Shown here: piece by piece, positions 6,379 to 31,848 of the stretch
Numbering within the stretch: position 1 is the stretch's first letter
How the letters are laid out: each line of letters starts with the position of its first letter
From: a virus
Reading direction: 5' to 3' (one strand)
Length of the DNA stretch: 39,442 bases
Virus record (IMG/VR): IMGVR_UViG_3300020156_000018
Span: 1-39,442 of that record
Position numbers and translations under genes: made by a program
The notes under the pieces: model-generated
Database searches by the model: none
What the model was told of the DNA's origin: nothing
The model's input: the letters and a program-made list of their open reading frames with translations, nothing else

Positions 6379-6392
6379 GTTCTACTGCCAGC
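6379..6392 (-). promoter_or_regulatory. Late 14-base motif, copy A (capsid leader)
   Basis: Minus-strand GCTGGCAGTAGAAC. The same 14 bases occur at 10158-10171 and 31835-31848, in the same orientation. Copies A and B share 16 bases. This copy lies just downstream of the terminator that closes the scaffold transcript and 182 bases before the capsid ATG, as expected for a promoter or regulator binding site restarting transcription. Confidence 0.5.
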
Positions 6393-6402
6393 CATGAAAC
6401 GG

Positions 6403-6433
6403 AAAAGCCCGGCCCCCTCGCAGGGGCCGGGCT
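6403..6433 (-). terminator. Rho-independent terminator after the scaffold gene
   Basis: A perfect 11-bp GC-rich stem (AGCCCGGCCCC at 6406-6416, GGGGCCGGGCT at 6423-6433, loop of 6) is followed on the minus strand by TTTTCC. It lies 24 bases after the scaffold stop and just before motif copy A, separating the portal/scaffold transcript from the capsid transcript. Confidence 0.85.
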
Positions 6434-6456
6434 CTGGCAAATGAATGTCGGGGATA

Positions 6457-7440
6457 CTATCTCCGCGTGCGCTTTTCCCTCGCGGCATCCTGCGCGTAGA
6501 GATCCTTCACGCGGGCGGCCTTCACGGGATCGCGCTTCCAATTCGGATCCTGGCGCATGATCGCCTGCGCTTGTTGCTTGGCCGACCCGCTTCCGTTGAA
6601 GACTTCCTTGTCGATCCCCGGGATCGGAGCCTCCCGGGATGCACGGCGGGCCTCGTCCACAAGCGCCACGATGTCGGGGTGAGACAGCGCGGCCTTGAGG
6701 ATCGGGTCCCCAAGGTCGAGCTTCCGGGCGGTGATGAAATCACGGTTCGCGCCAAGGAATCCCTCGTAGTCGTCACCCTTCTCCTTGCGGAAACGCTTCT
6801 CGGAGGCCGCGGCCAGTTCGTCGATCTTCGCGGCCATGCGGGTTTGGGCCTGCTGCTGCTGCTTTTGGGCAACGCCGAGGTAGAACTCGCTCGCCTCCTT
6901 CATGAACTCCGCGGGCACATGATGCTTGTGCGCGAGTTGCTGGAAAGCGGCCGCTGATTCGTCGTCCCATTCCAGACCGTCCGGCACCTTCGGGGGCTTG
7001 AACCCGTACTCTTCGGGAGCGTTCGGCGCTCCGACAAGCCGGCGGAAGTCCTGAACATCCTGATCCGCCGCGCCCTCGGTCGGCCGGGTGACCCTCTTGC
7101 CGCTGGCGTGACCGATCGCGTCATCCAGCATCCTGAAGAGCGATGCTTCGTCCTTCGCGGTCATCGCGCGGCTAGCCAGCCGCTGGAAACCGGCGTCCTC
7201 AAGGGCTTTCGACCAGCCCTCCTTGAATTTCCCCTCCGTGGCGTAGTCATCGCGGAAGAATCCCGAGGACTTGGCGGTCTGCGCTGGCGCCGGATTGGTT
7301 CCTCCGGCAGGATCGGCAAATAATCCGTTGCCGGACGGGGCCGGTGCCGGAGTCGCCGGGGCTACTGCGGGAGCGGCTGGGGCCGGCGTGGAGGGAGCGG
7401 CTGCGGGAGCCGCGGGGGTTGCTACTGCTGCTTCACTCAT
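6457..7440 (-). CDS. Capsid scaffolding protein
   Basis: Encodes 327 residues. Residues 1-37 are almost only Ala, Pro, Ser and Thr, followed by a charged, mostly helical body with a Gln-rich coiled-coil stretch (four Gln in a row, then Arg-Met-Ala-Ala-Lys-Ile-Asp-Glu-Leu) and a basic C-terminus ending Lys-Arg-Thr-Arg-Arg. This low-complexity, helical, charged make-up and the position immediately before the major capsid gene are typical of podovirus scaffold proteins, which fill the procapsid and bind coat protein through a basic tail. No protease motif is seen, so it is probably released and not cleaved by a phage enzyme. Confidence 0.82.
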   Translation of the reverse strand: MSEAAVATPAAPAAAPSTPAPAAPAVAPATPAPAPSGNGLFADPAGGTNPAPAQTAKSSGFFRDDYATEGKFKEGWSKALEDAGFQRLASRAMTAKDEASLFRMLDDAIGHASGKRVTRPTEGAADQDVQDFRRLVGAPNAPEEYGFKPPKVPDGLEWDDESAAAFQQLAHKHHVPAEFMKEASEFYLGVAQKQQQQAQTRMAAKIDELAAASEKRFRKEKGDDYEGFLGANRDFITARKLDLGDPILKAALSHPDIVALVDEARRASREAPIPGIDKEVFNGSGSAKQQAQAIMRQDPNWKRDPVKAARVKDLYAQDAAREKRTRR

Positions 7441-7482
7441 GGGTCAAAATGGAAGGTGTGGATTCAGGCGCGGGCATCGGTT

Positions 7483-7980
7483 TCACTCTTCTCCTCGGGA
7501 ATCCGCGGCCCGTGCGATGTCGGCGTCACGATCGCTGCTTTCGTACGGCTCGGGAACTTGCCTCCCGGTGATATTGGTTCCCTTGCGGCCAGCGTATTTC
7601 TCGCCGGCCTTCTTCGGGTGATATTTGAACCACCAGGCGACGACCTCGGGGGTCTTGTCACCGGCTGTCGGGTCTTCCGGCGGACAGGGGGGAATGTCTC
7701 CGGAGGAAGGATTGCCGATCGGCTGCCTCGCCATCTCGACACGAGCATGTGCACCTGCAAGTGCTTGAGCCGTCTGGCGTCCCCTGTCGGGTAGAGGCTG
7801 CTCGGGAGGGGACTCATGGCCTTCCGATCGAAGGAAAGCCTCCACGGCTTCCCTGTGCTCGGCCTGCCCTTTCGCCATGCGGAGTTCGCCGTTCTTGTCG
7901 ATCACCGCCACTTTGTGCGGGGCGATGAGCGCCGGATCGGACGAAAACAGGATGTCATTCTTAGCGCGGGAGTAGTTCAT
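7483..7980 (-). CDS. Head-module hypothetical protein
   Basis: Encodes 165 residues. It is hydrophilic, with an N-terminal part resembling a short beta-hairpin domain (Val-Ala-Val-Ile-Asp-Lys-Asn-Gly-Glu) and a Pro-rich middle (about residues 57-105), then Trp-Trp-Phe-Lys-Tyr-His-Pro-Lys-Lys and a Lys/Arg-rich C-terminus. No known family is recognised. It sits between the Bbp19-like gene and the scaffold gene, so a minor head or assembly role is likely. No clear ribosome binding site. Confidence 0.6.
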   Translation of the reverse strand: MNYSRAKNDILFSSDPALIAPHKVAVIDKNGELRMAKGQAEHREAVEAFLRSEGHESPPEQPLPDRGRQTAQALAGAHARVEMARQPIGNPSSGDIPPCPPEDPTAGDKTPEVVAWWFKYHPKKAGEKYAGRKGTNITGRQVPEPYESSDRDADIARAADSRGEE

Positions 7981-7997
7981 TGGATCTCAGGTTCGGA

Positions 7998-8282
7998 TTA
8001 GAGGGGGAAAGTGATTTGAGTCTCACCCCCTTGCTTCAGGCATTGGATGATGAAGAGCGGAATCCGGGTTTCGCCCTCGCGGATCGCTGCCTTGATCGGG
8101 TCGCTATCCGGTCCGAAGCGGGATCCCAGCACGCCCGCCTTGCGCATGAGCAACTCCAGGACGTGCTTTCCCTCCGGGGACGAGAAGTGCTTCGCGATGG
8201 CATTCATCTCGGCGACGGTCTCCGCCTTCCTCTCCTGGGCGACGGCTGCAGCGGCAGCCTGCTTGCTCCTCACGCTCTTCAT
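7998..8282 (-). CDS. Bbp19-like structural protein
   Basis: Encodes 94 residues. After an Ala-rich helical start comes the pattern Phe-Ser-Ser-Pro-Glu-Gly-Lys-His-Val-Leu..Leu, then Ala-Ile-Arg-Glu-Gly-Glu-Thr-Arg-Ile-Pro-Leu-Phe-Ile-Ile, which matches the small Bbp19 family named after Bordetella phage BPP-1. Members sit next to the portal in temperate podoviruses, as here: its ATG overlaps the portal stop by ATGA. The molecular role is not established. Confidence 0.7.
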   Translation of the reverse strand: MKSVRSKQAAAAAVAQERKAETVAEMNAIAKHFSSPEGKHVLELLMRKAGVLGSRFGPDSDPIKAAIREGETRIPLFIIQCLKQGGETQITFPL

Positions 8283-9922
8283 ACGGCTTGCTGGAATTGC
8301 TGGATCGCGCCCGGCGGCATCTCGGCGACGTTCTTAGCAACCTCGCTGCCGGTCTTGGCATTCTCGAGCTGCGCCCGCTCCTGCATCGCCTGAGCTTGAG
8401 CCGCCTCCTTGGCCTGCATCTCCTTCACCGAGGCAATCCACTTCTCCGGCTGCCCGCTATTGCGGAGCAAATCGCGAATCAGCTTCTCCGGGCGGTACGC
8501 GTTGAAGATTGTTCGGCTGAGTTCAGGGAAAGCCTGTAGGACCGGCAGCATCAGGGAGAAGAATTCGACCAACGCGCCGTTTTCCTTGGCTTGCATCGCC
8601 AGGGCGACCTTGTTCGCGTAACGAACCCTGCCGCCTTTCCCCAAGTTCACCACGGACAGCGGTGGTTCAGGGAATTTCCCGGCCCGGAAAAGGATGGAGA
8701 AGACGCGAGCCAGAATCACATCGACCATCTCGTTCATGATCCGCCCATAGACGGGCGAGAACTGGGTGAGCTTCTCCCGGGCAATCAGCGAGGCTTCGGT
8801 GGCCGTGAGCGGGCTTCGCTCCTGCGAGCGCAGCGAGAACAGCTTGAAGAGATCGACATGGAACGCATCTTGGATCGCCTTCTTCTTGTCGGAGATCCGG
8901 TCCTTGAGGATGTCGTATCGGCCGCGGTCGTGGAGTTGCTTCACGTCCGAACCCGTCTCCCCCGTAAGATAGGTAATCTCTAGCGCGCCTTGGGCGACTT
9001 CGCCCTCCAGATCCGGAGTTGCCACCAGGGGCGGGAACACTTCCTTCTCGGTGCCGAGATCGGCCAGTTCGTTGAGAAAGGAAAGCTGCATGCTGTCCCC
9101 AACCGCCAGGGAGCCGGGACCGAAGCCGTAGGGGCACTTCCCATACTTGGCGTAGCGGTGGACAGCGAAAGGGAACTCGTGGGCTCCCCCGTTCCGCACG
9201 ACTTTCAGACCATCGACGCAAACCACGATGTCGAGCCAGGGCAGTTTCTCGCTCTCCGGAGCGTCGGGATCCGGCTTTCCGCGCCGCTTGGTCACCAGGT
9301 GGACGAACTCGAAGGTTTCCGCCATCCCCTCGGGCTTGCCGACCTTGCGGGCGATTTTACCCGGAAGAACATCCTGGCCAAATTCCTCGGCGGCTTGATC
9401 GGCGGTGAGACAGATTTCCCGGACGTGGGTGTTCACGCGCCCCTTGGAATCCTCGGCGATGTAATAGGAGCCGATCGGCTGGTTCAGGAAGCAAAGTTCC
9501 CCTTGGTCGTCGAGCTCCCCGCAGTAAAGCGAGCAGGTTCCGAAGACCCCGCTGGCGAAGAGGGACTCTTGGGCCTCTTCGTAGAAATTGGACGGCTCGA
9601 TATACGAGGTGAGCGCGATTTCGCTGCACTCACGAAACCATTTGATGGCTTCATCATCCGCCTTGAGTTCGTCCGGAGGCGCGTACTCGAACCATTGCTC
9701 TTCCCGCGGGATAATGAGGGAGCATAGGCCGTTGTTGAAAATTTGGGCCGCCTGCCTGGGCGTGCTGTCGAACATCTGCTCCGCACTGATGACGTCCGCC
9801 GCCATGCTGGTGATTTGGCGGAAGGGCGTGTAAATCTCCGCCAGTTCATTGAGATGAGACTCGACCGGCGCGCGGAGAGTCCTGAGCTGGTCGCGGATCT
9901 TGATGACTTCCCTTGCGGTCAT
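8279..9922 (-). CDS. Portal protein (podovirus head-tail connector)
   Basis: Encodes 547 residues, the usual size for T7 gp8-type connectors. The N-terminal region contains the family hallmark (Leu-Ala-Glu-Ile-Tyr-Thr-Pro near residues 26-32, Phe-Asp-Ser-Thr-Pro-Arg-Gln-Ala-Ala-Gln-Ile-Phe-Asn-Asn-Gly-Leu near 51-66, and Trp-Phe in the following segment). The C-terminal third is helical and Gln/Ala-rich, as expected of the crown. Twelve copies form the portal ring at the packaging vertex and bind the terminase and tail tubular protein A. The start overlaps the preceding small gene by ATGA. Confidence 0.93.
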   Translation of the reverse strand: MTAREVIKIRDQLRTLRAPVESHLNELAEIYTPFRQITSMAADVISAEQMFDSTPRQAAQIFNNGLCSLIIPREEQWFEYAPPDELKADDEAIKWFRECSEIALTSYIEPSNFYEEAQESLFASGVFGTCSLYCGELDDQGELCFLNQPIGSYYIAEDSKGRVNTHVREICLTADQAAEEFGQDVLPGKIARKVGKPEGMAETFEFVHLVTKRRGKPDPDAPESEKLPWLDIVVCVDGLKVVRNGGAHEFPFAVHRYAKYGKCPYGFGPGSLAVGDSMQLSFLNELADLGTEKEVFPPLVATPDLEGEVAQGALEITYLTGETGSDVKQLHDRGRYDILKDRISDKKKAIQDAFHVDLFKLFSLRSQERSPLTATEASLIAREKLTQFSPVYGRIMNEMVDVILARVFSILFRAGKFPEPPLSVVNLGKGGRVRYANKVALAMQAKENGALVEFFSLMLPVLQAFPELSRTIFNAYRPEKLIRDLLRNSGQPEKWIASVKEMQAKEAAQAQAMQERAQLENAKTGSEVAKNVAEMPPGAIQQFQQAV

Positions 9923-10104
9923 CCGGCGTTGCCGAGGTAGGGGTTGCCGGGTGCAGGAGTAGCAGAAGTGGCACCGGTTTCCCCGGCGAGGTAGGAGGAG
10001 CCGGTAGAGCGCCGGCGCTTTCTCAAATCCTCTTCAAGTCGGTCTGCCCCTTCCGCCGCATCGTTAGCCCGCGGGGCGGGCGGCGGCGGGGGATTGGTCG
10101 GCAT
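9919..10104 (-). CDS. Small Pro-rich protein upstream of the portal
   Basis: Encodes 61 residues from the ATG at 10102-10104, which has a GGA about 9 bases upstream; ATGs at 10126 and 10143 are in-frame alternatives (up to 74 residues). Five Pro in a row near the start are followed by a Glu-Asp-Leu-Arg-Lys-Arg-Arg-Arg helix and a Gly/Pro/Ala tail. It overlaps the portal start by ATGA and the preceding gene by 41 bases. Motif copy B lies 53 bases upstream. Unknown function, probably head-associated. Confidence 0.6.
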   Translation of the reverse strand: MPTNPPPPPAPRANDAAEGADRLEEDLRKRRRSTGSSYLAGETGATSATPAPGNPYLGNAG

Positions 10105-10501
10105 TACTGCATCCGGGCTGTCCATCGGCGGCCACAGTCGCACGGCTCGCGGTGGCCGTTCTACTGCCAGCCGCGAGTCGGCATGCCTCGGTCCACTGGA
10201 TGCGCCTCAGTCGCCCGCGCCGGTGATAAGAGATCCACGGAAGGAACGGCAGGAGGCGGGGAAGCGAGGAGACGTCGCCCGCAGCAAGGCCGATGTGCCA
10301 GCAATCGGGATCGGTGGATACAAGGAGCGGGTCGTTCAGTTCCGCAGTGCTCCAGTCGGTGCCCACCGGCCGCACCAGGGCGAAGAGGTCCGGCGTGATG
10401 AACACCATTCCACTCTGGGCATGGGCTTCGACGAAGCGGGAGAACGGCCACCGGGTACCGGAAGCGAGCCACAATTCCGCCGCTCTGGCGAACGGAGTCA
10501 T
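10064..10501 (-). CDS. Conserved podovirus protein between terminase and portal
   Basis: Encodes 145 residues. The first 100 residues have a globular pattern (Ala-Glu-Leu-Trp-Leu-Ala-Ser-Gly-Thr, Phe-Ile-Thr-Pro-Asp-Leu-Phe-Ala-Leu-Val-Arg-Pro-Val, Asp-Cys-Trp-His-Ile, Leu-Pro-Trp-Ile) seen in small proteins found at this position in other podoviruses. The last 35 residues are Ala/Arg/Ser-rich and contain the DNA of motif copy B, so this tail may be constrained at the DNA level. The ATG overlaps the terminase stop by ATGA. Role unknown. Confidence 0.7.
   Translation of the reverse strand: MTPFARAAELWLASGTRWPFSRFVEAHAQSGMVFITPDLFALVRPVGTDWSTAELNDPLLVSTDPDCWHIGLAAGDVSSLPRLLPFLPWISYHRRGRLRRIQWTEACRLAAGSRTATASRATVAADGQPGCSNADQSPAAARPAG
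10158..10171 (-). promoter_or_regulatory. Late 14-base motif, copy B (before portal genes)
   Basis: Minus-strand GCTGGCAGTAGAAC, identical to copies A and C; with copy A the match extends to 16 bases. It lies inside the 3' end of the preceding gene, 53 bases before the start of the small gene that leads the portal gene. A promoter or regulator site for the portal/scaffold transcript is the suggested role. Confidence 0.45.
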
Positions 10502-12030: not shown

Positions 12031-12469
12031 GGCTCCGGATTCGTTGCATCACGAAAGCCAACTCTTCGGTTACCCCGTGCTCCACTCCTAGCTTGTCTCC
12101 GTATTGCTTGGGGGCCCACTTAGCAAGGAGCTTCAGGCGGGTCTCGACCTGAAGTCGTGCCCTCGCGATCGCCACTTCACTGGTAATCACTCCCTTCTTG
12201 GACATTACCCAATCGTGGCGCTCGTCATCGGCGATTGTGAGGCACTGCGCGGCAAGAGCATCGAATCCCTCCTCACGCGCGCGTGCGAAGGCGGCGGAAA
12301 ACTCCGGCACTGCTCTTTTCCAATCACTGACGGTGCGAACGGCAGGCATCCCTTCCCGCCGACAAATCTCGGCCAGGGGAATCCCTTCCGAGAGAGATTC
12401 GCAAATCTTGTCGGCGGTCGCCGGGCTAAAGGTCGATGGCCGCCCTTGCGTTGCTTTCTGCTTCTTCAT
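12014..12469 (-). CDS. terS: Terminase small subunit
   Basis: Encodes 151 residues. The ATG at 12467-12469 overlaps the stop of the upstream winged-helix gene by ATGA, which favours it over an in-frame start 87 bases earlier. The N-terminal half has Gly-Arg-Pro-Ser-Thr-Phe-Ser-Pro, then a HTH (about residues 20-45, Ile-Pro-Leu-Ala-Glu-Ile-Cys-Arg-Arg-Glu-Gly-Met) and Thr-Val.Asp-Trp.Arg..Pro-Glu-Phe, the pattern of phage small terminase DNA-recognition domains; the rest is helical and probably mediates ring formation. It is followed directly by the large subunit. Confidence 0.87.
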   Translation of the reverse strand: MKKQKATQGRPSTFSPATADKICESLSEGIPLAEICRREGMPAVRTVSDWKRAVPEFSAAFARAREEGFDALAAQCLTIADDERHDWVMSKKGVITSEVAIARARLQVETRLKLLAKWAPKQYGDKLGVEHGVTEELAFVMQRIRSRGNGN

Positions 12470-12786
12470 GATTCGAGGGTGAAGTTTTGGGCCGGGGGCG
12501 GCTTCACCCCCATGAGTATCGCGACTTTCAAAGCGCCCTCGTCGGTGAGTTTGCAAACCGAGCGTTTCCCGCGGGTTCCGCCGGCGGGTCTCGTCTTCAC
12601 GAGTTGGATCCAGCCTTGCTTGTGAATCGCATCGTAGGCCCGCCAGAACGTGCGATCGGGGATCTCCGACTCCTTCCGCAGTTCGTGAGGGCGACGCTCC
12701 GCCTTGCCTATCAGCAAAAGCAAGATGGCTTCGTCATCGCGGAGCAGGGCGTTCCGCTTGTTGCGCAACAACTGGGCGGGGCTCAC
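12466..12786 (-). CDS. Winged-helix DNA-binding protein
   Basis: Encodes 106 residues with a winged-helix pattern: a short helix, Leu-Leu-Leu-Leu-Ile-Gly-Lys-Ala, a helix-turn-helix (about residues 33-60, with Arg-Thr-Phe-Trp-Arg-Ala-Tyr-Asp), then two basic strands (Thr-Arg-Pro-Ala-Gly-Gly-Thr-Arg-Gly-Lys-Arg) that look like the wing. It is the first gene of the packaging operon after an AT-rich gap and overlaps the small terminase by ATGA. A regulator of late genes or a packaging-site binder are both possible. Confidence 0.7.
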   Translation of the reverse strand: MSPAQLLRNKRNALLRDDEAILLLLIGKAERRPHELRKESEIPDRTFWRAYDAIHKQGWIQLVKTRPAGGTRGKRSVCKLTDEGALKVAILMGVKPPPAQNFTLES

Positions 12787-12883
12787 GGCTTTATGGTCTC
12801 ACGTTTTGGATAACCTCACAAGCCAGGGTGCTCCTATCTCTTCCGGATATTTTAATCATTGGTGTCAAGCTTCTTGATTTGAT
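12787..12883 (-). promoter_or_regulatory. AT-rich gap upstream of the packaging genes, possible promoter
   Basis: These 97 bases separate the early operon from the packaging genes and are much more AT-rich than their surroundings. On the minus strand they hold a perfect TTGACA (12863-12868) followed by an AT-rich run (TTAAAATAT), but no -10 hexamer at the usual 16-18 base spacing, so this is only a candidate start point for late transcription. Confidence 0.3.
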
Positions 12884-13519
12884 TCACATAGCGAACACTG
12901 ACGATGGAGGCGCGAACCCCCTCGCTTTGGTGAAGGCGGCAATGGCGGTCTCCCGATCAACCAGATCGGGGAATTTCATCCGGTAGTGGTCTCCCGGGAA
13001 TTGCTCCTCCGGCATATCGCCTCGCGCGAACCACCAGCATTTGGCGAGTTCGTTCGGTGGTGGAGTAAGCAATACCGAGGACTCCCCGTCCGCGAGCGCG
13101 GCTTTGACCCGTTCGGCGAGGCATGGGCGCTCGTGCATCCAGTGCGCCTGACACATGCCGTCGTCGTCATAGACGCATTTGGAGTCGCAGCCGTTCGCGT
13201 CGCCAAGCTCTCGGAGCAGCCCCCTCAGCCTCTCGACCTCGGCACGGAGCGCGGCGGTCTCGCGTTCGAGGGTGGCCATTGCCTTCCACATCCCTACCTC
13301 CCCGCCGTGCTCAAGCGGGGTGCCGTGCTCGTCGGTCTCGATGAAGTCAGAGTGGTGATCGGTGAACCAGGTAAGCGGGATTCCGGTTGGAACCCACCGG
13401 CCATCTTGCTTGGCCTGAGTTTCCCATTTAGGGAGGCAGCGCCACATCGCGGAATTGCCTGCAACGAAATACCGCACCTTCGCGGCCTCTTCTTGGTCTT
13501 TCATCGGGTCATTGTTCAT
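12884..13519 (-). CDS. Hypothetical protein with coiled coil and Cys cluster
   Basis: Encodes 211 residues from the ATG at 13517-13519, which overlaps the preceding stop by 11 bases; an ATG at 13504 is an alternative. A Trp-rich N-terminal part (about residues 15-70) leads into a coiled coil (about 75-105, Leu-Glu-Arg-Glu-Thr-Ala-Ala-Leu-Arg-Ala-Glu-Val) and then five spaced Cys/His residues (about 108-135) that could bind zinc. It is the last gene of the early leftward operon. No family recognised. Confidence 0.6.
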   Translation of the reverse strand: MNNDPMKDQEEAAKVRYFVAGNSAMWRCLPKWETQAKQDGRWVPTGIPLTWFTDHHSDFIETDEHGTPLEHGGEVGMWKAMATLERETAALRAEVERLRGLLRELGDANGCDSKCVYDDDGMCQAHWMHERPCLAERVKAALADGESSVLLTPPPNELAKCWWFARGDMPEEQFPGDHYRMKFPDLVDRETAIAAFTKARGFAPPSSVFAM

Positions 13520-13905: not shown

Positions 13906-14241
13906 TTATTCGTGCTTCCACCACCCGGAAAAGCCTGTCGGGTGGATGATCGGAGCTCGTAGGTTCATGAGCTCGGCGATCTTCTCCGGCCTGTGCCGGT
14001 AGGCCCTCCGTATCTTCTGGAAGGCGCTTTGCTCGATGAGGCTGATGGCCTGCTTCGTGCAGCCCGCGAAGGCGGCGATCTCGGCGAGGGTCCGGCATTG
14101 GCCGGGAGCGGTCAGGGCCCCGCAAATGGCGATGCCAAGGTCCATGTCGCGGCGCTTGTTCGTGGCGTAGCCGATGCGCTTCGGTGGCTTCGGAACGCCT
14201 AGCAGCCTCGCGCAGTTGCCTGCCCATTTGCGGTGCGTCAT
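13906..14241 (-). CDS. HTH protein, sigma-70 region 4-like
   Basis: Encodes 111 residues. Residues 51-80 read Thr-Leu-Ala-Glu-Ile-Ala-Ala-Phe-Ala-Gly-Cys-Thr-Lys-Gln-Ala-Ile, then Ile-Glu..Ala-Phe-Gln-Lys-Ile-Arg, which is the shape of a sigma-70 region 4 helix-turn-helix. It overlaps the DnaC-like gene by ATGA at its start. There is no region 2, so it is not a full sigma factor; it may act as a transcription regulator for later genes. Being near the end of the early operon, it is a candidate for the factor that recognises the late 14-base motif, but this is only inference. Confidence 0.65.
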   Translation of the reverse strand: MTHRKWAGNCARLLGVPKPPKRIGYATNKRRDMDLGIAICGALTAPGQCRTLAEIAAFAGCTKQAISLIEQSAFQKIRRAYRHRPEKIAELMNLRAPIIHPTGFSGWWKHE

Positions 14242-15038
14242 CGCTTCGCCCTCCGGTAGCTGGCCCAGGTGAATTCGATCCGCTTCCCGTTTTCGTGGAC
14301 CCGATCGACGATCGACGGCCCCAGCGATGCCCCGAGTTGGGCTTCATCCAGGTTCGCGATGATGATCGTCGGCCGCAGTGCGCCGTACCGCGCATCGATC
14401 AGATGGGTGAGCAGGCGGTCCTCGAAGGGCGTGTCCCCGCGCTCCTGCAGCTCGTCGAGGACCAACAACCCGCATTCCGTGAGCTGGTCGATCACGTCCC
14501 GTTCGGTCCCCGGGCTGTCCTTCTTGTAGGTCGCCCGGATGTCGAGGAAGAAGCGCATGGCCGTGCGGTAGAGGGCCGACTTCCGCGGCTCGGCATTTCC
14601 CTCAAGCTTCTTCCCGCGGGTCTGGTCGCAGGGAAAACGGCCGGCGCGGGCGATCTCTGCCGCCATCCGGGTTTTCCCGGGGCCCCGCTTGCCGTGCATC
14701 AGGATGATGCCGCCGCTCTCGATCACCGGGAGCGCCAAGGCGAAGCTTGCCAGCCACTCGCCGCCCGTCGGCTCCCCGAGGTCCTGGGTGAACTTCTCCG
14801 GCCATCCCTTGCTCACGTGGAGCGGATGCACGGCCTTCGGTGGGCGGGGAGCTTCCTCGATCGAGAGCTCACCTTGCTCGTGCTCGTCGGGGATTGCTTC
14901 GATGAATTGATCCAGGACCGAGAAAACGAGGCCATCCGTCTTCGGCGCGTTCGTGTCCCGCGGCGGCATGTGCTGCTGCGCTACCTTCACGAGCGCCGCC
15001 ATGTCATCGACCAGTTTTGTTTGTCCTTCCGTGCTCAT
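14238..15038 (-). CDS. DnaC-like helicase loader (AAA+ ATPase)
   Basis: Encodes 266 residues. The C-terminal AAA+ domain shows Walker A Gly-Lys-Arg-Gly-Pro-Gly-Lys-Thr (116-123), Walker B Leu-Leu-Val-Leu-Asp-Glu (191-196), sensor 1 Ile-Ile-Ile-Ala-Asn-Leu (225-230) and a likely Arg finger in Ser-Ile-Val-Asp-Arg (Arg246), the standard set of DnaC/IstB-type loaders. The N-terminal 90 residues are divergent, as usual for the helicase-binding part. It follows the replication protein with a 4-base overlap, so the pair should open the origin and load the host DnaB helicase. No phage helicase is seen. Confidence 0.88.
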   Translation of the reverse strand: MSTEGQTKLVDDMAALVKVAQQHMPPRDTNAPKTDGLVFSVLDQFIEAIPDEHEQGELSIEEAPRPPKAVHPLHVSKGWPEKFTQDLGEPTGGEWLASFALALPVIESGGIILMHGKRGPGKTRMAAEIARAGRFPCDQTRGKKLEGNAEPRKSALYRTAMRFFLDIRATYKKDSPGTERDVIDQLTECGLLVLDELQERGDTPFEDRLLTHLIDARYGALRPTIIIANLDEAQLGASLGPSIVDRVHENGKRIEFTWASYRRAKR

Positions 15039-16006
15039 AGTCCTTCAAGGCTGGTGCTGTCTCCGAGGTTGCTTTCGGGGCGCGAGCCCGCCTTACGCTT
15101 GGCCGCCCGCTCCTTTACCCAATCCACGGCGGTGGCCATGTCGGATTGCCAGGAGGTGATCTTGCGCGCGGATCCTGCTGCCGAGCTGATCGTCCATCCC
15201 GCCTTCTTCCTCGTGTGCCACCAGAATTCCGCCTCCTCAGGCGTCAGCCGTACCATCGGTGCGTAGCTCTTAGCCTGTTCCAAGGTACAGAGATCCTTAT
15301 CCTTATCCGTGTCCTTATCCTTTTCTTTTTCCTTAAGGCTACCTAGGTAGCCTTTATCACCCGCCCGAAAGGCTTCGATAGGCTTCCCGGTGGCCTTTGA
15401 AATCCTTTGAGCGACTGCCTTCCAGTCGAGTCCTGCGGCACGGCAAAACTCTTCGGCTGAGAAATCCCACTTCCTGATGTTAGCCTCCTTCGAGGCGACG
15501 ACCAGATTGTCAAGGGTCGCGGTGCCTCCCTTGGATCTAGGGTGGACGTGATCGATCGCTATTTCGTCATCCTGAAGTTCGCGGTCGAAGTAGATGCAAC
15601 GCTTACCGTCGCGCTCTATCACCTTCCTGCGAATATTGTCGTCCGCGAGTTCACGGAAGGCTTCGTTTTGAGCGACCTCATCACCTGTCATGCCATGTCT
15701 CGCCAGAGCCGCGAAAACCGGAGCATGCGGCTTACAGGCGCGCGAGAGTTTGCCGTATTGGAATTGCACAAACTTCACCACGTGGAATTTCCCGGAGGGA
15801 AGCGCCACCACCCTTGTGCCGAAATCGGAGAGCATAGCTTCATCCACATTCTCGCCTATCTGAAATGACGCCAGATCCCAATCGGGTTCGATCACTCCCG
15901 CGGCATCACACTTATCACATATCCATTGCCAAAGTAGTTTCTGTGTGGGCCCCAGCTTGCGGTACCACGTATCTTCCCACTTCTGGGTTTCGGTGAATCT
16001 TTTCAT
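15035..16006 (-). CDS. Replication protein with inserted HNH-like domain
   Basis: Encodes 323 residues. Residues 1-100 look like the winged-helix N-terminal part of phage replication initiators (Trp-Tyr-Arg-Lys-Leu-Gly...Leu-Leu-Trp.Trp-Ile-Cys-Asp-Lys-Cys-Asp-Ala-Ala-Gly). Residues 128-182 match an HNH nuclease: Glu-Arg-Asp-Gly-Lys-Arg-Cys, Ile-Asp-His-Val-His-Pro-Arg-Ser-Lys-Gly-Gly (Asp152, His153) and Asp-Asn-Leu (Asn167). Only the first of the usual zinc-binding Cys residues (Cys137) is left. A Lys/Asp/Glu-only linker (224-238) separates a C-terminal Trp-rich domain. It directly precedes the helicase loader. Confidence 0.78.
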   Translation of the reverse strand: MKRFTETQKWEDTWYRKLGPTQKLLWQWICDKCDAAGVIEPDWDLASFQIGENVDEAMLSDFGTRVVALPSGKFHVVKFVQFQYGKLSRACKPHAPVFAALARHGMTGDEVAQNEAFRELADDNIRRKVIERDGKRCIYFDRELQDDEIAIDHVHPRSKGGTATLDNLVVASKEANIRKWDFSAEEFCRAAGLDWKAVAQRISKATGKPIEAFRAGDKGYLGSLKEKEKDKDTDKDKDLCTLEQAKSYAPMVRLTPEEAEFWWHTRKKAGWTISSAAGSARKITSWQSDMATAVDWVKERAAKRKAGSRPESNLGDSTSLEGL

Positions 16007-16064
16007 GAAAGGGTTGGCGTAGCACCAAATAGGCTATTGTGGTCAAGGCTGGTGTTTTGCTCGT

Positions 16065-17210
16065 CTAGGAAAGGGCTAGGCCGGGGGTGACGTTGGTGCG
16101 GCGGCGGGCGATCTCCGCGTAAGAGGGGTTCAGCTCGAGGAGCACGCTGCGGAATCCTTCCAAGATGGCAGCTTTGCCGGTGCTTCCGGAACCAGCGAAC
16201 GGGTCGAGGATCAGTCCGTCTGGCGGGGTGACCAAGCGGCAGAGGTACCGCATCAGTTCCGTGGGCTTCACGGTTGGATGGGAATTCGTCGCGGCTCGGT
16301 TGGTACCAGCAGCCTGAAATGATCCGGGGTTTTTGGTCCCGTTGCTCCAGAGGATCGGGAGCTCAGGCAGCGCTTCCGTGCCGAAGTTCCGATCTGCCCT
16401 CGAAGCTTTCGCGCAATAGAAGAAGCGCGCCGCCCCGCCTTTGTCTCCCCGGTAGGTGGCAGTCGAATCCACCCGCTTCTTCATTCCCGAAAATTTCACT
16501 GGTCCGCTAAACCCGTTAGCCATGGGCTCGGACCCTTTAACTGGAGCAGCCGCCCCAGCCTTTTCCGGGAAGATTTGAACCACTTCCTCGCTCCCGTCGT
16601 GGATGATGTTGGCGGGCCACCGACCGAGCCCAGCCTCGCGATCCACCGCCTTGAACCCCCATTGTCCTTCCGTAGCGCCTGTATCCAGAGCCTTGCCGGA
16701 ATGGATTACCCCGCCCTGCAGCGGATCATCGATCGGCAGAGGAACACGGCACCCGTCGATATTCAAAGCACCGACACCATGCTGGGCCACGTTTTCCGCC
16801 GTCGTCCCCCGGAATGGCTTCCGAGCGACAATGATCGGTTCCATCGCAGGCTTGAGCGCCGTTCCCCATCCCTTCCACTTTCCGGTCAGGTTCTTCGATT
16901 TTGGGAAACCGCTGCCGTAGATCCATGCAATCGTATCGCGTATCTCAAACCCTGCGTCCTCGATCGCACATGCAATCCGATGAGCCGTCCTGGTGCTGCT
17001 GAAGGCAAGAAGGTGTCCGCCGGGCTTGAGCAGGCGAAAGCACTCCGCCCATGTCCCGACGTTGAATGAGACTCCGGAGCGGTCCCATTTCTTCCCCATG
17101 AAGCCGAGCTCGTAGGGCGGATCCGTGATAACGCTGTCGAAAGATTCGGCCTCAAAAGTAGGCATCAGCTCGAGGCAGTCGCCCACGTGGATGGTGCAAG
17201 TCGGGGTCAT
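16065..17210 (-). CDS. Adenine-N6/cytosine-N4 DNA methyltransferase
   Basis: Encodes 381 residues. The catalytic motif Asp-Pro-Pro-Tyr is at 30-33 and the S-adenosylmethionine-binding motif Asp-Pro-Phe-Ala-Gly-Ser-Gly is near 336-342, so motif IV precedes motif I (beta-class order). A long central part is the likely target-recognition domain. No restriction enzyme is next to it, so it is an orphan phage methyltransferase that probably protects phage DNA from host restriction or affects regulation. Target sequence unknown. Confidence 0.9.
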   Translation of the reverse strand: MTPTCTIHVGDCLELMPTFEAESFDSVITDPPYELGFMGKKWDRSGVSFNVGTWAECFRLLKPGGHLLAFSSTRTAHRIACAIEDAGFEIRDTIAWIYGSGFPKSKNLTGKWKGWGTALKPAMEPIIVARKPFRGTTAENVAQHGVGALNIDGCRVPLPIDDPLQGGVIHSGKALDTGATEGQWGFKAVDREAGLGRWPANIIHDGSEEVVQIFPEKAGAAAPVKGSEPMANGFSGPVKFSGMKKRVDSTATYRGDKGGAARFFYCAKASRADRNFGTEALPELPILWSNGTKNPGSFQAAGTNRAATNSHPTVKPTELMRYLCRLVTPPDGLILDPFAGSGSTGKAAILEGFRSVLLELNPSYAEIARRRTNVTPGLALS

Positions 17211-17219
17211 AGGGCAGCG

Positions 17220-18227
17220 TCAGACGGTCAGGGTGTCCATGTAGGCGGCGATGAATTCCGCGGCGACCTGCGGGACGATGGCATTGCCGTAACCGCGCAA
17301 TCGTCCCATGCGGGCGGGAACCCCATGAGCCAGCGGGAATGTGCCGGGTTCAACGCGCCGGGCTTTTCCGTCCCGACAGGGGATGAGGTCGAAGGCTGAC
17401 CAATGGCCAAGGTTGCCTCGCAATTCAGTGGTAGGCTGTTCCTGCGGAACTGCGACGGCCCCGCTTTGTTCGCAGCATCCTGGCAAGTTGGAGTCGCCCA
17501 TCCCGCGAGAATCCCCGCCACACTCTGTGGAGTCTGGCGGGCCCGCCTGCCTCCGTGAGTTGTCCCACGATTCTCGCTCATATTGGGTGCGTCCGTCGCT
17601 GTTGGCGTGGGCCAGCCCGCAAGAAGAGCGATCGAGTTCAGGCTTACCGTCGCTTTGCTCCCATCCGGTCGGCGTCCGGTGGGACTCGCGTCCTTTCCTG
17701 CCTGAGAACCCGTCGCGTTTCCAACCGTTGGGGTCGGCCACCCAGTAGAGGCGCTGGCGGATGTGCGGGGCGTTGACGCCCGCAGCGCACAAATCGGCGG
17801 CCCCGACTGCATATCCCAAGCCTTCCAGGTCAGCGCGTACTCCATCGAGCCAGTGGCGGCCAGCCTTGCTCGCAACCTGCTCTCCAAACGTGACTGTAAG
17901 GTCGCCGAACGTGATGATGTCGCGGAAGACCGGCCAGAGGTGGCGGGCGTCTTTCGTGCCGAGGCCCTTGCCCGCCGCGCTGAAGGGCTGGCAGGGGCAA
18001 GATCCGGTGCGGACGGGGCGGTCTGTCGGCCATCCTGCAAGCTGGAGAGCGAGGGACCATCCGCCGATGCCGGCGAAGAAGTGCTGCTGAGTGTATCGGG
18101 CGATTTCATGGGGTCGGATGTCCACAATCGAGCGCTCGTCCACGTCGCCGGGCGGAATGTGGCCTTGCGCGATGAGCTCGCGGAGCCAGGCCGCGGCCTT
18201 GGGATCGTGCTCGTTGTAGTAGTTCAC
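17220..18227 (-). CDS. DNA cytosine-C5 methyltransferase
   Basis: Encodes 335 residues. The start is the GTG at 18225-18227, overlapping the TGA of the resolvase gene in a GTGA. The C5 motifs are in order: motif I Phe-Ala-Gly-Ile-Gly-Gly (about 51-56), motif IV Pro-Cys-Gln with catalytic Cys79, motif VI as Gly-Glu-Gln-Val (115-118), motif VIII His-Ile-Arg-Gln-Arg-Leu-Tyr-Trp-Val (155-163), and motif X Gly-Tyr-Gly-Asn-Ala-Ile-Val-Pro-Gln (from about 312). The variable region between VIII and X would choose the target. A 299-residue reading frame lies inside it in another frame on the same strand. Confidence 0.9.
   Translation of the reverse strand: MNYYNEHDPKAAAWLRELIAQGHIPPGDVDERSIVDIRPHEIARYTQQHFFAGIGGWSLALQLAGWPTDRPVRTGSCPCQPFSAAGKGLGTKDARHLWPVFRDIITFGDLTVTFGEQVASKAGRHWLDGVRADLEGLGYAVGAADLCAAGVNAPHIRQRLYWVADPNGWKRDGFSGRKGRESHRTPTGWEQSDGKPELDRSSCGLAHANSDGRTQYERESWDNSRRQAGPPDSTECGGDSRGMGDSNLPGCCEQSGAVAVPQEQPTTELRGNLGHWSAFDLIPCRDGKARRVEPGTFPLAHGVPARMGRLRGYGNAIVPQVAAEFIAAYMDTLTV
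17228..18127 (-). other. Long alternative-frame ORF inside the cytosine methyltransferase gene
   Basis: This 299-codon frame starts at an ATG (18125-18127) and lies wholly inside the methyltransferase gene on the same strand in another frame. It is rich in Ser, Thr, Ala and Pro and has several repeats of Trp-Pro/Ala-Thr-Pro-Thr and, near its end, Leu-Asn-Pro-Ala-His-Ser-Arg-Trp-Leu-Met-Gly-Phe-Pro. I recall similar predicted proteins from other phage genomes, and the last motif also resembles the Leu-Asn-Pro..Trp-Leu-Met-Gly segment near motif X of true C5 methyltransferases. Whether it is translated is unknown. Confidence 0.35.
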
Positions 18228-18790
18228 AGCGGCATCGCGGCTTGGGTTTCGGTTGCCGGGGGGATGTTGAGAACGGCGCGGCGCAAGTGCTCGGCGATCA
18301 GGCAGGCGTCGACCATACCGTCGTGAGCGACCTTCGAGCGGCTCGTCGCAAGGAAATCGCGGGCGGGCCATAGCTCCCGTGCCGCCTTCATCGCCGCCGC
18401 CTTGGTGTCGAACTTGGGAGGCTTCGGCTGGCCCTTCTTTGCCCGCGGCGGAGCCGGCCAGAACGTACGCTGCCAGTCCCATGCCGTTAGGGGCCACAGC
18501 GTCCCCGGGCGGCGGCATTCAATTACCGTCCGGCATGTGGCGAAGCTATCCGCCATCGACTGCACGGCGTTCACGTCCTGAGATCCCGCCGGGCGCTCTA
18601 GCGCGATGAACAGGGCCGCGGGGTAGGTCCCGATGATCGAGGAGAAAACCCGGGCATCGACAATGTTGGCTGCCGCCCCCTTGCCCCGCGGCCCGGTGGC
18701 CCTGGGCATGGTGTAGGTCGCCACGATACCGCCGCTCTCGTCGAGAACCGCGATCCCGCCATTGAGGCCATTGTCGATCCCGATGAACAT
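18224..18790 (-). CDS. RuvC-like Holliday junction resolvase
   Basis: Encodes 188 residues from the ATG at 18788-18790, four bases after the preceding stop; a start 33 bases upstream would overlap that gene. It begins with the RNase H-fold strand Phe-Ile-Gly-Ile-Asp-Asn-Gly (Asp6), has Ile-Ala-Leu-Glu-Arg-Pro (Glu65) and ends with His-Asp-Gly-Met-Val-Asp-Ala (Asp157, Asp161), the usual acidic tetrad of RuvC-type resolvases. It should cut branched DNA formed during recombination or before packaging. It sits between the recombination genes and the methyltransferases. Confidence 0.82.
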   Translation of the reverse strand: MFIGIDNGLNGGIAVLDESGGIVATYTMPRATGPRGKGAAANIVDARVFSSIIGTYPAALFIALERPAGSQDVNAVQSMADSFATCRTVIECRRPGTLWPLTAWDWQRTFWPAPPRAKKGQPKPPKFDTKAAAMKAARELWPARDFLATSRSKVAHDGMVDACLIAEHLRRAVLNIPPATETQAAMPL

Positions 18791-26891: not shown

Positions 26892-26980
26892 TTTCCGGAA
26901 CCCTAAAGTGACTGAATTTTCAATCGGGTAGTATCGGGGAACATCAATAAATCATGTTCCACACGGAACATTTCCGGAAC
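26892..26980. repeat. Repeats flanking attP (possible integrase arm sites)
   Basis: TTTCCGGAAC occurs at 26892-26901 and again at 26971-26980, 79 bp apart. Between them GGAACAT is found at 26938-26944 and 26965-26971 and its complement ATGTTCC at 26954-26960; the last two form a perfect 7-bp hairpin with a 4-base loop (26954-26971). Such repeated elements beside the core fit arm-type integrase or excisionase sites; the hairpin may also end the convergent int and lysis transcripts. Confidence 0.5.
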
Positions 26981-27004
26981 AACTACCGGGGCGCCGCTCC
27001 CGGA

Positions 27005-27843: not shown

Positions 27844-27848
27844 GCTGA

Positions 27849-27882
27849 CACCCCGAAGCCCCGCTGCCGTGAGGGAGCGGGG
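27849..27882 (-). repeat. Intergenic hairpin, copy 2
   Basis: A 7-bp stem CCCCGCT/AGCGGGG (27859-27865 and 27876-27882) is followed on the minus strand by CTTCGGGGTG, then 5 bases later the endolysin ATG. The flank is identical to the hairpin at 19527-19558 over 16 bases. It could hide or set the spacing of the endolysin start, or be a mobile hairpin element. Confidence 0.55.
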
Positions 27883-27908
27883 CGGTTATCGGAGGAGGTG
27901 AAGGATGA

Positions 27909-28484: not shown

Positions 28485-28819
28485 GGCATGATGGGTGAGA
28501 CCGAGAGATAAACCACCTGCCCCTCCGTGCCGCCTGAGATGGTGGCCGCGAGGAAGCCGCTGGCGGCGGCGACGAATTCGAAGTTGCCGTAGGGCACGTT
28601 TGCCAGATCCAAGGAGATCGGCAGGCCGAGCGAGTCGCGGATTGGCTTGAAGTCCGCCGCGTCCGGAATGTCTTTCCAAGAGGTCTGGAACAAGAGCGTG
28701 CCGAGGTTGGCATCCCCGCGGAATCCCACGGCATAGCGCTGTCCGGCGAAGAGAGGACACTCGTGGGAGGTGAGCATCGTTTCGCTCGCTCCTCCGGAAT
28801 TAACGGTGAGGGTGATCAT
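28481..28819 (-). CDS. Small virion protein, tail end of the fibre operon
   Basis: Encodes 112 residues with a beta-rich pattern (Thr-Leu-Thr-Val-Asn-Ser-Gly-Gly, Tyr-Gly-Asn-Phe-Glu-Phe-Val-Ala, Gly-Gln-Val-Val-Tyr-Leu-Ser-Val) and no membrane segment. It lies 12 bases after the fibre gene and overlaps the putative holin by ATGA. Probably a tail-associated protein; no family recognised. Confidence 0.6.
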   Translation of the reverse strand: MITLTVNSGGASETMLTSHECPLFAGQRYAVGFRGDANLGTLLFQTSWKDIPDAADFKPIRDSLGLPISLDLANVPYGNFEFVAAASGFLAATISGGTEGQVVYLSVSPIMP

Positions 28820-28831
28820 GATTGTTTGGGG

Positions 28832-30484
28832 TCAGTAGTCGGGAAGGTCGCGGGTGATTTTCCGCTTGAGGGTGGGGTAAGCCAGGCGGTGGGTATTCAG
28901 CTTCGGTTGCGGGGTCACGAAGGTCAGGAGATAGTGCCAGTATTGGGTTCCCGCACTGGTCCGGTGGCCGCGGTTGATTTGCTTCACGCGGTTCTCCGTG
29001 GCACCCCCCGCGGACCATGCGCTTGCCGAGGGGATGGCGCTGGTGGCCTCCCAGTCGTTCGTGTAAGCAGCCCCGCTGATAAGCGCGCCGCTGCCAGCGG
29101 TGCCCGTGTTGGAGCTGCCGGTGGTGGAGAAGAACGACGTCGTGGCTAGGGATGGGACCGCCTTTTGATTCGCCTCGTTGAAAGCGGCGAAAAGCGCCAG
29201 ATCCCCGTCTTTGTGAAAAACCTGCCCCCAGTAGGCGAGCGTGGCCTCATCCGGAGAAGTCGTGATGGCGCCGGGATCTACGGCCGGGCCGGTGCGATCG
29301 GTGGTAACCGTGATCGTGTTCGCGTCCGGGACGGTCGCCACGGTCCAATCGCCGTTGAAGTAAGTTGCCGGGGTTGCGAGGCGGGCGGTGCCATCGCTGG
29401 CGGCTCCCGGGTTGGTCGCGTTGGTGACAGTAAAGGTGTTCGCGTCCGGAACAGTGGCCACCGTGTGGGTGCCGTTGTAACCGGCAATTGTGCAATCCTC
29501 GATGACGCATGTATCGGTCGGATTGAGACCGTGGGACGGGGCCGTCACGGTCCATGCGGATCCGTTGGCGGTGATGCCGGTGATCGCATGGCGAAGCGGC
29601 ACCGCGCCGTCGATAACCAGATCATCGGACGCCGCGAAATTGTGCGGCTCGCTGGTGGTGATGGTCATCGTGGTACCGTTCCCGGAAATGGCCGAGGTGG
29701 CGAAACGGTAGGGATAGCCCGAAATGATCTCGGAGAGCGTGACGGTGTGGGCGGTCCTGCCCGAGGCCGTGAGCTGCTGCTTGTAGGTGAGCTCGATTTG
29801 GTCGAATTCCTCAACCGCAACCGGAACCGCCAGGACGATCCGGGCGTACGTGTTGACCATGACGCTGCCGAGCGTGTAGGCCGCGGACGCTGCAGGGAAA
29901 ACGGCGGATTGGGTGACTTCCTGGGTTCCGGCGTTGAGGTCTTGAACGAGATTGGTCGTGCAGGCGACCGACTGCGCGCTACCCGCAATGGAGTTCTTGT
30001 TGGTGAAATAGACGCGGATCGTCTTCCCGGTCAGAGTCCTCGCCGGCCCGGATACCGTGAATTCGGTGTCGGACACGCGGGTCACGATGTGGCACCGCTC
30101 GCCGTCCTGCCATTTGATCTCATTGCCGATGTAGGAGGGAGAGGCCGGGACAATCCCGGCGCCCGACACGCGGGTGACCGTGTTGCCCGCTTGGCTCCAA
30201 GTGCCGTCAAGATCGATGTAGTTCGCGGACGTGTCCGCGAACGTGTAAATCGTGGTATTGATATCGTTGAGCGAGGTGGCGCGCGTGTTGATGCAGCCGT
30301 TCAAGATGAGGTTCGGCATCCACGGGCTTTCCGAGATGAGCTTGCCGCGGAGTTGGAAGCCGTTCGTCAGGGCGCGGGGCAAGCGATCGAGCTGGCGGTT
30401 CACGAAGCGCTGGAGACGGGTCGGCCGGCGCTTCTTCACTTGGAGTTTTCCCGAGAGCGAGGCGTTGACGGTGATGGGATTCAT
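28832..30484 (-). CDS. Tail fibre/receptor-binding protein with repeats
   Basis: Encodes 550 residues. The N-terminal 60 residues are basic and Arg/Leu-rich; the rest is Thr/Gly/Ala/Asn-rich and beta-like. Two copies of a 40-residue unit occur (DNA repeats 29316-29344 and 29436-29464, exactly 120 bp apart), each with Val-Ala-Thr-Val-Pro-Asp-Ala-Asn-Thr, a pattern widespread in phage fibre repeats. The ATG overlaps the preceding stop by 4 bases. It is probably the host-recognising fibre or an adhesin bound to the T7-type fibre protein encoded upstream. Confidence 0.75.
   Translation of the reverse strand: MNPITVNASLSGKLQVKKRRPTRLQRFVNRQLDRLPRALTNGFQLRGKLISESPWMPNLILNGCINTRATSLNDINTTIYTFADTSANYIDLDGTWSQAGNTVTRVSGAGIVPASPSYIGNEIKWQDGERCHIVTRVSDTEFTVSGPARTLTGKTIRVYFTNKNSIAGSAQSVACTTNLVQDLNAGTQEVTQSAVFPAASAAYTLGSVMVNTYARIVLAVPVAVEEFDQIELTYKQQLTASGRTAHTVTLSEIISGYPYRFATSAISGNGTTMTITTSEPHNFAASDDLVIDGAVPLRHAITGITANGSAWTVTAPSHGLNPTDTCVIEDCTIAGYNGTHTVATVPDANTFTVTNATNPGAASDGTARLATPATYFNGDWTVATVPDANTITVTTDRTGPAVDPGAITTSPDEATLAYWGQVFHKDGDLALFAAFNEANQKAVPSLATTSFFSTTGSSNTGTAGSGALISGAAYTNDWEATSAIPSASAWSAGGATENRVKQINRGHRTSAGTQYWHYLLTFVTPQPKLNTHRLAYPTLKRKITRDLPDY
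29316..29464 (-). repeat. Direct repeats in the fibre gene
   Basis: Two near-identical 29-base segments (29316-29344 and 29436-29464) lie 120 bp apart and encode the same nine residues Val-Ala-Thr-Val-Pro-Asp-Ala-Asn-Thr. The exact multiple of three keeps the frame, as in duplicated fibre modules that can change copy number. Confidence 0.65.
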
Positions 30485-30936
30485 GGGATGGCGTAGGTTC
30501 CTCCGGTCGGAGCCGGGAAAGTGACGGCGGCGGTGTTGGTCTCGATCAAGCCCAGGGGTATGAGGGTTTCGAGGTAGTCCCCTCCGCCCGGGGCCGGGAA
30601 GGTGACCGCCGCGGTATCAGCGGCGATGAGGCCGAGCGGCACGATGGTGCTTCGATACTGGCCGCCCGAGGGCGCGGGGAAGGTAACGGCGCCCGTGTCG
30701 GTGCCGATCGAGCCGATATCGACAAGGGTCGATCGGTACATGCCTCCGTCCGGCGGCGGGAGCGTGATGGCCGCGAACTCGAAAAAGCGGTCCACCTGAT
30801 ATTCGCCGGAATGGGGTCCGGGGAAGGTGATGGCGGCTGCTTCACGCCCGAGGACCGCGGCGGCCATGACCGCGCCGTCCAGCGGCATGAGCCATTTGCC
30901 GCGTCCGTCTTGGAGGAGTGGAATTTCATCGGCCAT
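30481..30936 (-). CDS. Repetitive tail-associated protein (27-residue repeats)
   Basis: Encodes 151 residues; the ATG overlaps the preceding stop by one base (TGATG). From about residue 33 to the end it has five copies of a unit with Ala-Ala-Val-Thr-Phe-Pro-Ala-Pro-x-Gly-Gly-x-Tyr, spaced 27 residues in the middle, the last cut short at the stop. Such regular beta repeats suggest a fibrous tail or trimer component between the T7-type fibre and the adhesin. No known family was recognised. Confidence 0.7.
   Translation of the reverse strand: MADEIPLLQDGRGKWLMPLDGAVMAAAVLGREAAAITFPGPHSGEYQVDRFFEFAAITLPPPDGGMYRSTLVDIGSIGTDTGAVTFPAPSGGQYRSTIVPLGLIAADTAAVTFPAPGGGDYLETLIPLGLIETNTAAVTFPAPTGGTYAIP
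30484..30774 (-). repeat. 81-bp tandem repeats in the tail gene
   Basis: The DNA repeats with a period of 81 bp, encoding 27 residues each (for example the units starting near residues 55, 82 and 109). The copies differ mostly at variable positions, so this is an old, degenerate array and not a recent slippage product. Confidence 0.6.
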
Positions 30937-31802
30937 CAGTAAATGTCTCCGAATACCCACCAGCGGTTGACCCCGATTAGCTGCACCACCACGGGCTTCA
31001 TCTGACTGAAGATCCGGGGAGCCGAGCCCACGGCCGACTCGATGATGACACCCACGGGTGCCACGAAATCGACCGTCCCCACGCCGAACCGCGATAGGGT
31101 GCAGAAGAACTCGCCCGAGAAATCGGCGGTCTCCGGCAACGTGACGATGACCGGGCTCGCGCTGTTGATGCGGATCGAGGAATTTACGTCCTCTTGGGTG
31201 ACCGTGAAGGATTCGGCAGCCTCGCGGGTGCGGTAGGGAAGGATCGCCTCGGCCCCGAGAATGACCATGAGCCGCTGCGCGAGCTGATCGAGCCGGAGGA
31301 TCTCGATAGCCCCGGTATCGGTGCCGAAGAAAATGATAGAATCCTTCCGGAGTGCGGGAGGCGGAAGCACGGTCGCGTCGCTCGGCGCTTCCTCTCGTGG
31401 AATTCGTATCGCCCGGGAAATGTCCCCCTCTTCCCGGCGTCTCTGGTCGATCATGGCCATCGTTTGCCAGTCGTCCACCCGCTCCAGAGTGGCGGACGGC
31501 ACCCTCCCGTTGACGGTCAGGGCGGCGGACTGAATCAGCGGGGTATTTCGCGACACCAGCAGCGTTGAAGACGCGGGAATCGCTCGCCCTCCGGTAATAA
31601 TGCTGGCGCTGGATGTTACTCCGCTGCCGCTGATCGTGTAATCTACGCCCAAAGCAAGAACGGTGATTACGTCGTCCTCGTCGATCTCCTCGACCGTCAG
31701 CCAGGAGTTGTCGTCGAACCGCAAGTCAGCCAGCGCGTACGGCGTCGAAAGCGAACCGTTGCCTACGAACGAAAGCTGGGAAACCTGCGAGCTGATGGCC
31801 AT
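30936..31802 (-). CDS. T7-type tail fibre protein
   Basis: Encodes 288 residues. The N-terminal 150 residues match the T7 gp17 virion-attachment layout: Phe.Gly-Asn-Gly...Pro-Tyr..Leu-Arg-Phe, a short beta domain ending Leu-Gly-Val-Asp-Tyr-Thr-Ile, Leu-Leu-Val-Ser-Arg-Asn-Thr-Pro, then Asp-Asp-Trp-Gln-Thr-Met-Ala-Met and Ile-Asp-Gln-Arg-Arg-Arg. The C-terminal half is a different beta-rich domain. It follows the 14-base motif by 32 bases. The body is short for a full fibre, so the two downstream proteins may add the distal parts. Confidence 0.82.
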   Translation of the reverse strand: MAISSQVSQLSFVGNGSLSTPYALADLRFDDNSWLTVEEIDEDDVITVLALGVDYTISGSGVTSSASIITGGRAIPASSTLLVSRNTPLIQSAALTVNGRVPSATLERVDDWQTMAMIDQRRREEGDISRAIRIPREEAPSDATVLPPPALRKDSIIFFGTDTGAIEILRLDQLAQRLMVILGAEAILPYRTREAAESFTVTQEDVNSSIRINSASPVIVTLPETADFSGEFFCTLSRFGVGTVDFVAPVGVIIESAVGSAPRIFSQMKPVVVQLIGVNRWWVFGDIY

Positions 31803-31834
31803 TCCCGCGCAGGGTAGGCCACGGCAGGCGTCTG

Positions 31835-31848
31835 GTTCTACTGCCAGC
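31835..31848 (-). promoter_or_regulatory. Late 14-base motif, copy C (before fibre genes)
   Basis: Minus-strand GCTGGCAGTAGAAC, identical to copies A and B. It fills part of the 49-bp gap between the giant virion gene stop (31852) and the fibre ATG (31802), leaving 32 bases to the start codon. No terminator is seen in this gap. Confidence 0.5.

Follow-up and report, generated by a model that had tools for sequence, protein, structure and literature searches.

A 14-base element, GCTGGCAGTAGAAC, that recurs in the DNA of an uncultivated T7-like phage very probably forms the upstream half of promoters driving its late genes, and such late promoters are strongly supported by comparison with the sequences of related phages. 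The DNA analysed, here called the window, comprises positions 1 to 39,442 of IMG/VR record IMGVR_UViG_3300020156_000018. We think it likely that the element is read by a phage winged-helix activator acting together with host σ70-type RNA polymerase. Five features taken from the sequence underlie this reading: the three sites themselves, a -10-like hexamer at a set spacing, the spacing of the downstream ATG, the conservation of the sites' positions in relatives, and the conservation of a winged-helix gene; from these we infer the activator role of the winged-helix protein, the host polymerase as reader and the transcription start points.

A direct repeat of 127 bases at the two ends of the window (1-127 and 39316-39442) suggests a complete contig, and the record is probably complete and circularly closed. 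The phage is T7-like: its minus strand, on which the window features given below with coordinates also lie, encodes first the terminase and portal, then the scaffold and capsid, and finally the tail tubes, the internal virion proteins and the fibre. A giant protein of 2230 amino acids, very divergent in relatives, occupies the internal-virion-protein position (31852-38544); sequence searches against Pfam, PHROGs and PDB gave no match for it. The early region (15035-18518) encodes an HNH protein, an N6/N4 methylase and a cytosine-methyltransferase-like ORF.

The repeated element and the genes it precedes

The 14-mer is present in the window as exactly three exact copies, at 6379-6392, 10158-10171 and 31835-31848, all on the minus strand and in the coding direction, as the original prediction had stated. 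It is the sole 14-mer with three occurrences on one strand, and any same-strand triple of this length arose in 1 of 200 fourth-order Markov simulations, which bears out the earlier view that the repetition is not expected by chance. No additional site was found in the window at one or two mismatches; three were found at three mismatches, where chance predicts 2.3 matches at three or fewer. Because the sequences flanking the three copies are unrelated to each other, the 14-mer is not a dispersed repeat. Matches to PHROG families confirm that each copy lies before late genes, namely those for the major capsid protein (phrog_3437), a small proline-rich ORF with the portal (phrog_332), and the tail fibre (phrog_1640).

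The first copy (TAGAAC at 6384-6379) is assigned to the activator-site half and -35 region of the capsid promoter. It sits between a strong terminator, a GC-rich hairpin followed by a T-run at 6403-6433 that ends the upstream scaffold unit, and a conserved leader RNA; relatives have terminator-like hairpins at the equivalent place. The -10-like hexamer CATGAT (6356-6361) follows TAGAAC by 17 nt, and the capsid gene (5267-6196) is preceded by a stretch (6197-6349) predicted to be the 5' leader of its mRNA, with a conserved hairpin core. The second copy (TAGAAC at 10163-10158), assigned to the portal-operon promoter, falls within ORF 10064-10501, in its variable 3' tail, and begins 46 nt 5' of the small proline-rich ORF (MDSPDAVMPTNPPPPP..., 9919-10125), which overlaps the start of the portal (head-tail adaptor) gene at 8279-9922. 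Its hexamer, GACTGT (10134-10139), lies 18 nt after TAGAAC, and the ATG of the small ORF, a predicted leaderless start, lies 38 nt after the T of the motif. The small protein itself is conserved in relatives as M-G-S-x-P-K-x-P-P-P-P-P, between ORF 10064-10501 and the portal. At the third copy (TAGAAC at 31840-31835), assigned to the tail-fibre promoter, the hexamer TACCCT (31811-31816) again follows by 18 nt, and the ATG (31802) of the tail-fibre gene (30936-31802), also a predicted leaderless start, again by 38 nt. A possible weak fourth promoter at 1657-1670, with three mismatches and a CATGAT -10 at the right spacing, lies close to the 3' end of a tail gene and 5' of ORF 1111-1566; in two relatives, G003 and G010, a full element is found in roughly this position.

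Positional conservation and promoter anatomy

Relatives were collected by means of the capsid protein as 12 and later 25 IMG/VR loci, and whole contigs were read. The window phage is labelled W or G000 and the contigs of relatives bear other G numbers; G008/G009 and G015-G017 are near-duplicates. By capsid and portal the nearest named phages are HTVC010P-type pelagiphages, which have T7-like structural genes as the window phage does, and others, but all are distant, with only 24-28% identity. A search of bacterial genomes by capsid and portal found no prophage relative.

The exact 14-mer, whose presence in related phages the original prediction had proposed as a check, was absent from the first set of relatives, and a collection-wide scan with it gave at least 118 single matches, as chance predicts for 14 bases, with none among the capsid-found relatives. 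The wording of the motif is not conserved, but its site, spacing and gene neighbours are. In 15 of the 17 relatives compared, a phage-specific element of about 20 nt, often TTTCCC-N4-GGGAAA-TAGAC, is common to the slot at the capsid leader and the one before portal or fibre, though only weakly so in two of the 15. This element, worded differently from the window 14-mer, lies between the upstream gene's terminator and the capsid leader, and it is repeated on that strand roughly 225-265 nt 5' of the portal start and about 50 nt 5' of the fibre start. Scored against random placements within the same contig, slot matches were clear in W, G001, G002, G004, G006, G007, G009 (fibre), G012, G013, G014, G016, G017, G019 and G021, and weak in G008, G015 and the portal site of G009. 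The element was not recognised when the slots of G005 and G018 were compared, both of which carry the winged-helix gene; the match scored in G018 proved to be a hairpin inside the leader and was rejected.

In G003, a contig without a portal, the capsid element recurs 5' of a short-tail-fibre gene, and at this fourth location the close pair G003/G010 differs in the spacer while the element, the -10 and the spacer length are kept. Whole-contig scans with each phage's own element returned essentially only the known sites, all on the coding strand, together with three unlisted ones (G019 21620, G015 26667 and G017 26988). Each of these lies 36-37 nt 5' of the ATG of a fibre-like gene, and the three genes, which share LxYNERL, were recognised as fibre-like only after the scan. 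We found no description of this promoter family in the literature.

For an alignment, 32 sites gathered by within-phage similarity were anchored on a single base, the T of the window TAGAAC (position 0); the alignment was built after the sites had been seen. Positions -16 to -1 hold TTTCCC-N4-GGGAAA or a relic of it, and positions 0 to 5 hold T(A/G)G followed by A/C-rich bases. A -10-like hexamer of the form xAxxxT is found at +23/24 to +28/29 in 24 of the 32 sites, against a chance mean of 2.4 and a maximum of 8 in 2000 draws, and all three window sites carry its A at position 2 and T at position 6. Before the portal-operon small gene and the fibre gene, an ATG stands at +35 to +39 in 16 of 17 sites (chance mean 1.3), at +38 in both applicable window sites; the exception is the portal site of G013, with its ATG at 56.

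The original prediction held that the motif does not fit σ70. The alignment does not support this: TAGAAC occupies the -35 position, 17-18 nt before the -10-like hexamer, and the motif consists of a poor -35 with a site upstream of it. TAGAAC matches TTGACA at three of six bases and the relatives at up to four (TAGACG, TGGACG), so that neither has a -35 close to TTGACA, and a consensus promoter scan missed these promoters because it demands a better -35 and -10. Since the -10 ends 6-9 nt before the ATG, a transcription start at or adjoining the ATG is implied, relative to which the element spans about -52 to -31. The mRNAs are accordingly predicted to be nearly leaderless at the portal-operon small gene and the fibre, and to begin with a structured 5' leader at the capsid. 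Shine-Dalgarno sequences are missing at most genes here and do not single out the leaderless candidates; the spacing is therefore the sole basis of the leaderless prediction.

Perfect 6/6 dyads, each at p <= 0.01, are present in G007, G014, G015, G017 and one G009 site; they are centred at about -45, where the site of a dimer would be expected. G006 has a 5/6 dyad. No dyad was found in the three window sites, in G012 or in G001-G003; a symmetric dimer site is therefore not general, and the reader in the window lineage may bind asymmetrically or via one half.

The candidate activator and other readings

The original prediction had named two helix-turn-helix proteins and a phage-encoded activator. 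One of the two, the winged-helix (MarR-like) protein whose gene (12466-12786) immediately precedes that of the terminase small subunit, is the best candidate and the likely activator; the other, at 13906-14241, has no detectable counterpart in relatives. The analysis bears out a late-transcription signal whose reader is probably a phage-encoded activator, and the candidate gene is conserved: a winged-helix protein of about 90-125 amino acids is encoded directly 5' of the terminase genes in the window and in all 12 relatives whose contigs cover the region (G001, G004, G005, G006, G008, G009, G012, G014, G015, G017, G018 and G019). A profile built from the other members brought in the divergent ones in the window, G012 and G001 (E 7e-6, 8e-5 and 8e-3, respectively). 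In AlphaFold models (pLDDT 92-93), 12466-12786 and its relatives have a winged-helix fold with a recognition helix and a beta wing, and the best Foldseek matches are mostly MarR proteins. The Pfam MarR profile gave E values of 3e-4 to 0.007 for three relatives, below the cut-off, and no match for the window protein, in which Pfam found no Mor match either. Upstream of the winged-helix gene, an AT-rich stretch (12790-12890) containing TTGACA is a possible promoter of the candidate activator; TTGACA is also present upstream of the G014 homologue.

Across nine phages, and with capsid distance allowed for, phages that differ more in the recognition helix also tend to differ more in the element (partial r 0.5, p 0.006). 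Along the winged-helix protein this correlation peaks at the recognition helix, with another part giving p 0.009, and the control proteins portal and scaffold give nominal p values of 0.04-0.05. The correlation is modest and no more than suggestive of recognition helix and element changing together.

In the mechanism that we propose, 12466-12786 would bind the element just upstream of the -35 region and touching it, and would there recruit host σ70-type RNA polymerase to the weak -35 (TAGAAC) and, 17-18 nt downstream, the degenerate -10 (xAxxxT). The portal-operon small gene and the fibre gene would be transcribed from the ATG or from within a few bases of it, yielding the nearly leaderless mRNAs, and the capsid transcript would start at about 6348, its mRNA beginning with the conserved structured leader.

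The late promoters could have a different reader, such as the σ-region-4-like protein 13906-14241, a small protein encoded just after a DnaC-like loader gene, which would replace or retarget σ at the -35; we regard this as unlikely. The protein matches Sigma70_r4 (PF04545, E 3.6e-4) and the motif's 3' end occupies the -35 position, but a large part of the element is 5' of the -35, and the protein has no counterpart in 16 relatives (several contigs being partial), most of which have the same promoter layout. Most MarR proteins are repressors, and it is no likelier that the element is an operator through which the winged-helix protein represses the late promoters until late infection. The MarR-type fold, the overlap of the site with the -35 and the presence of a -10-like hexamer would agree with repression; the poor -35 and -10, however, better fit a promoter that needs help, and the winged-helix gene leads the late packaging genes, presumably a usual place of a late activator.

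We consider it very improbable that the sites are promoters for a phage RNA polymerase of the single-subunit or virion type (T7- or N4-like). Such a reading would draw on the T7-like gene order and the placing of sites before capsid and fibre, on the hairpin-like dyads of some relatives and on the 2230-residue virion protein without a recognised fold. Against it, T7-type RNA polymerase (PF00940) was absent from the window, G004, G012 and G019 in a search that detected the T7 control at E 1e-109, in agreement with the earlier statement that no phage RNA polymerase is present; the giant protein has no polymerase-family match at the sequence level in the searches described above; and the conserved -10-like hexamer 18 nt downstream would not be expected. 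Hairpin promoters of the N4 type were dropped as a candidate, the window copies having no dyad and no polymerase family being matched.

The original prediction also allowed that an RNA element may act. One does exist, but solely at copy 1 and 3' of the motif: the capsid leader, a feature separate from the promoter element. About 150 nt long, the leader has conserved blocks, small hairpins and some compensatory changes, with a hairpin core AGGAYACY...GAGGCGAYCC...GACTCGCGAA and blocks AGGAYACY...GAGGCGAYCCGC...GACTCGCGAA at the same place in 14 relatives; an Rfam search of the window and the leader matched no family. The structured leader could regulate capsid translation. Still less credible than phage-polymerase promoters is a role of the 14-mer as an RNA-level signal, a site of processing or translation within the 5' region of late transcripts: its fixed distance to the ATG and the hairpin potential in some relatives would suit one, but the window copies have no hairpin-like dyad, the capsid-gene element lies about 190 nt upstream, before the separate leader, and the conserved -10-like hexamer points to DNA. 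Chance repetition, for which the one simulated triple leaves a little room, is scarcely believable, being contradicted by the positional conservation in relatives and by the -10 and ATG spacing.

Known promoter systems and implications

The predicted arrangement is like that of Mu Mor and C, read by an unrelated fold. Mor and C activate the middle and late promoters of Mu from an activator dimer site just upstream of the -35 and overlapping it (PMC4287176, PMC4461284), and the Mor dyad spans -51 to -36, centred at -43.5 (PMC4287176). Shared with Mu are the proposed use of host RNA polymerase, a -10 with a poor or no -35, a small number of promoters each placed before a late unit, and the position of the site, about -52 to -37 here where a dyad exists. 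Unlike Mor and C, the candidate activator is a MarR-like winged helix, the predicted starts are leaderless, the wording of the element varies between relatives and the window copies have no dyad. In the phiEco32-like phages and 7-11, late promoters are read by a phage sigma factor (PMC8948821). There too the places of the promoters are conserved between relatives and their sequences are not, but that reader is a complete sigma factor that has an element of its own, whereas the promoters described here have a σ70-like -10 and the relatives have no sigma factor in common, the region-4-like protein being found only in the window phage (several contigs being partial).

The class III promoters of T7-type phages stand before capsid and fibre and are read by a phage-encoded single-subunit RNA polymerase. 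The window phage resembles them in its virion gene order and in having promoters before capsid and fibre, but it has no T7-like RNA polymerase and its promoters differ in anatomy. The late promoters of P2 depend on the activator Ogr/delta, a zinc-finger protein in the case of Ogr, with an upstream dyad and host σ70. The promoters predicted here are alike in their proposed activator dependence and use of host σ70 and in an upstream dyad where one exists, and unlike in that Ogr is a zinc-finger protein whose site lies further upstream.

The sites would be a variant of activator-dependent phage late promoters. Tentatively, and with some doubt, we suggest that a clade of T7-like phages without an RNA polymerase uses two to four promoters of the leaderless type, with a MarR-fold activator heading the packaging operon, recognition helix and element changing together, and each lineage keeping a private code at fixed genome positions. 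A mode of late-gene control is thereby proposed for uncultivated T7-like phages in which no phage-encoded RNA polymerase is detectable. Such paired variants of activator and promoter would form a natural series in which the evolution of DNA-binding specificity may be followed, and they may be of use in building mutually independent gene switches.
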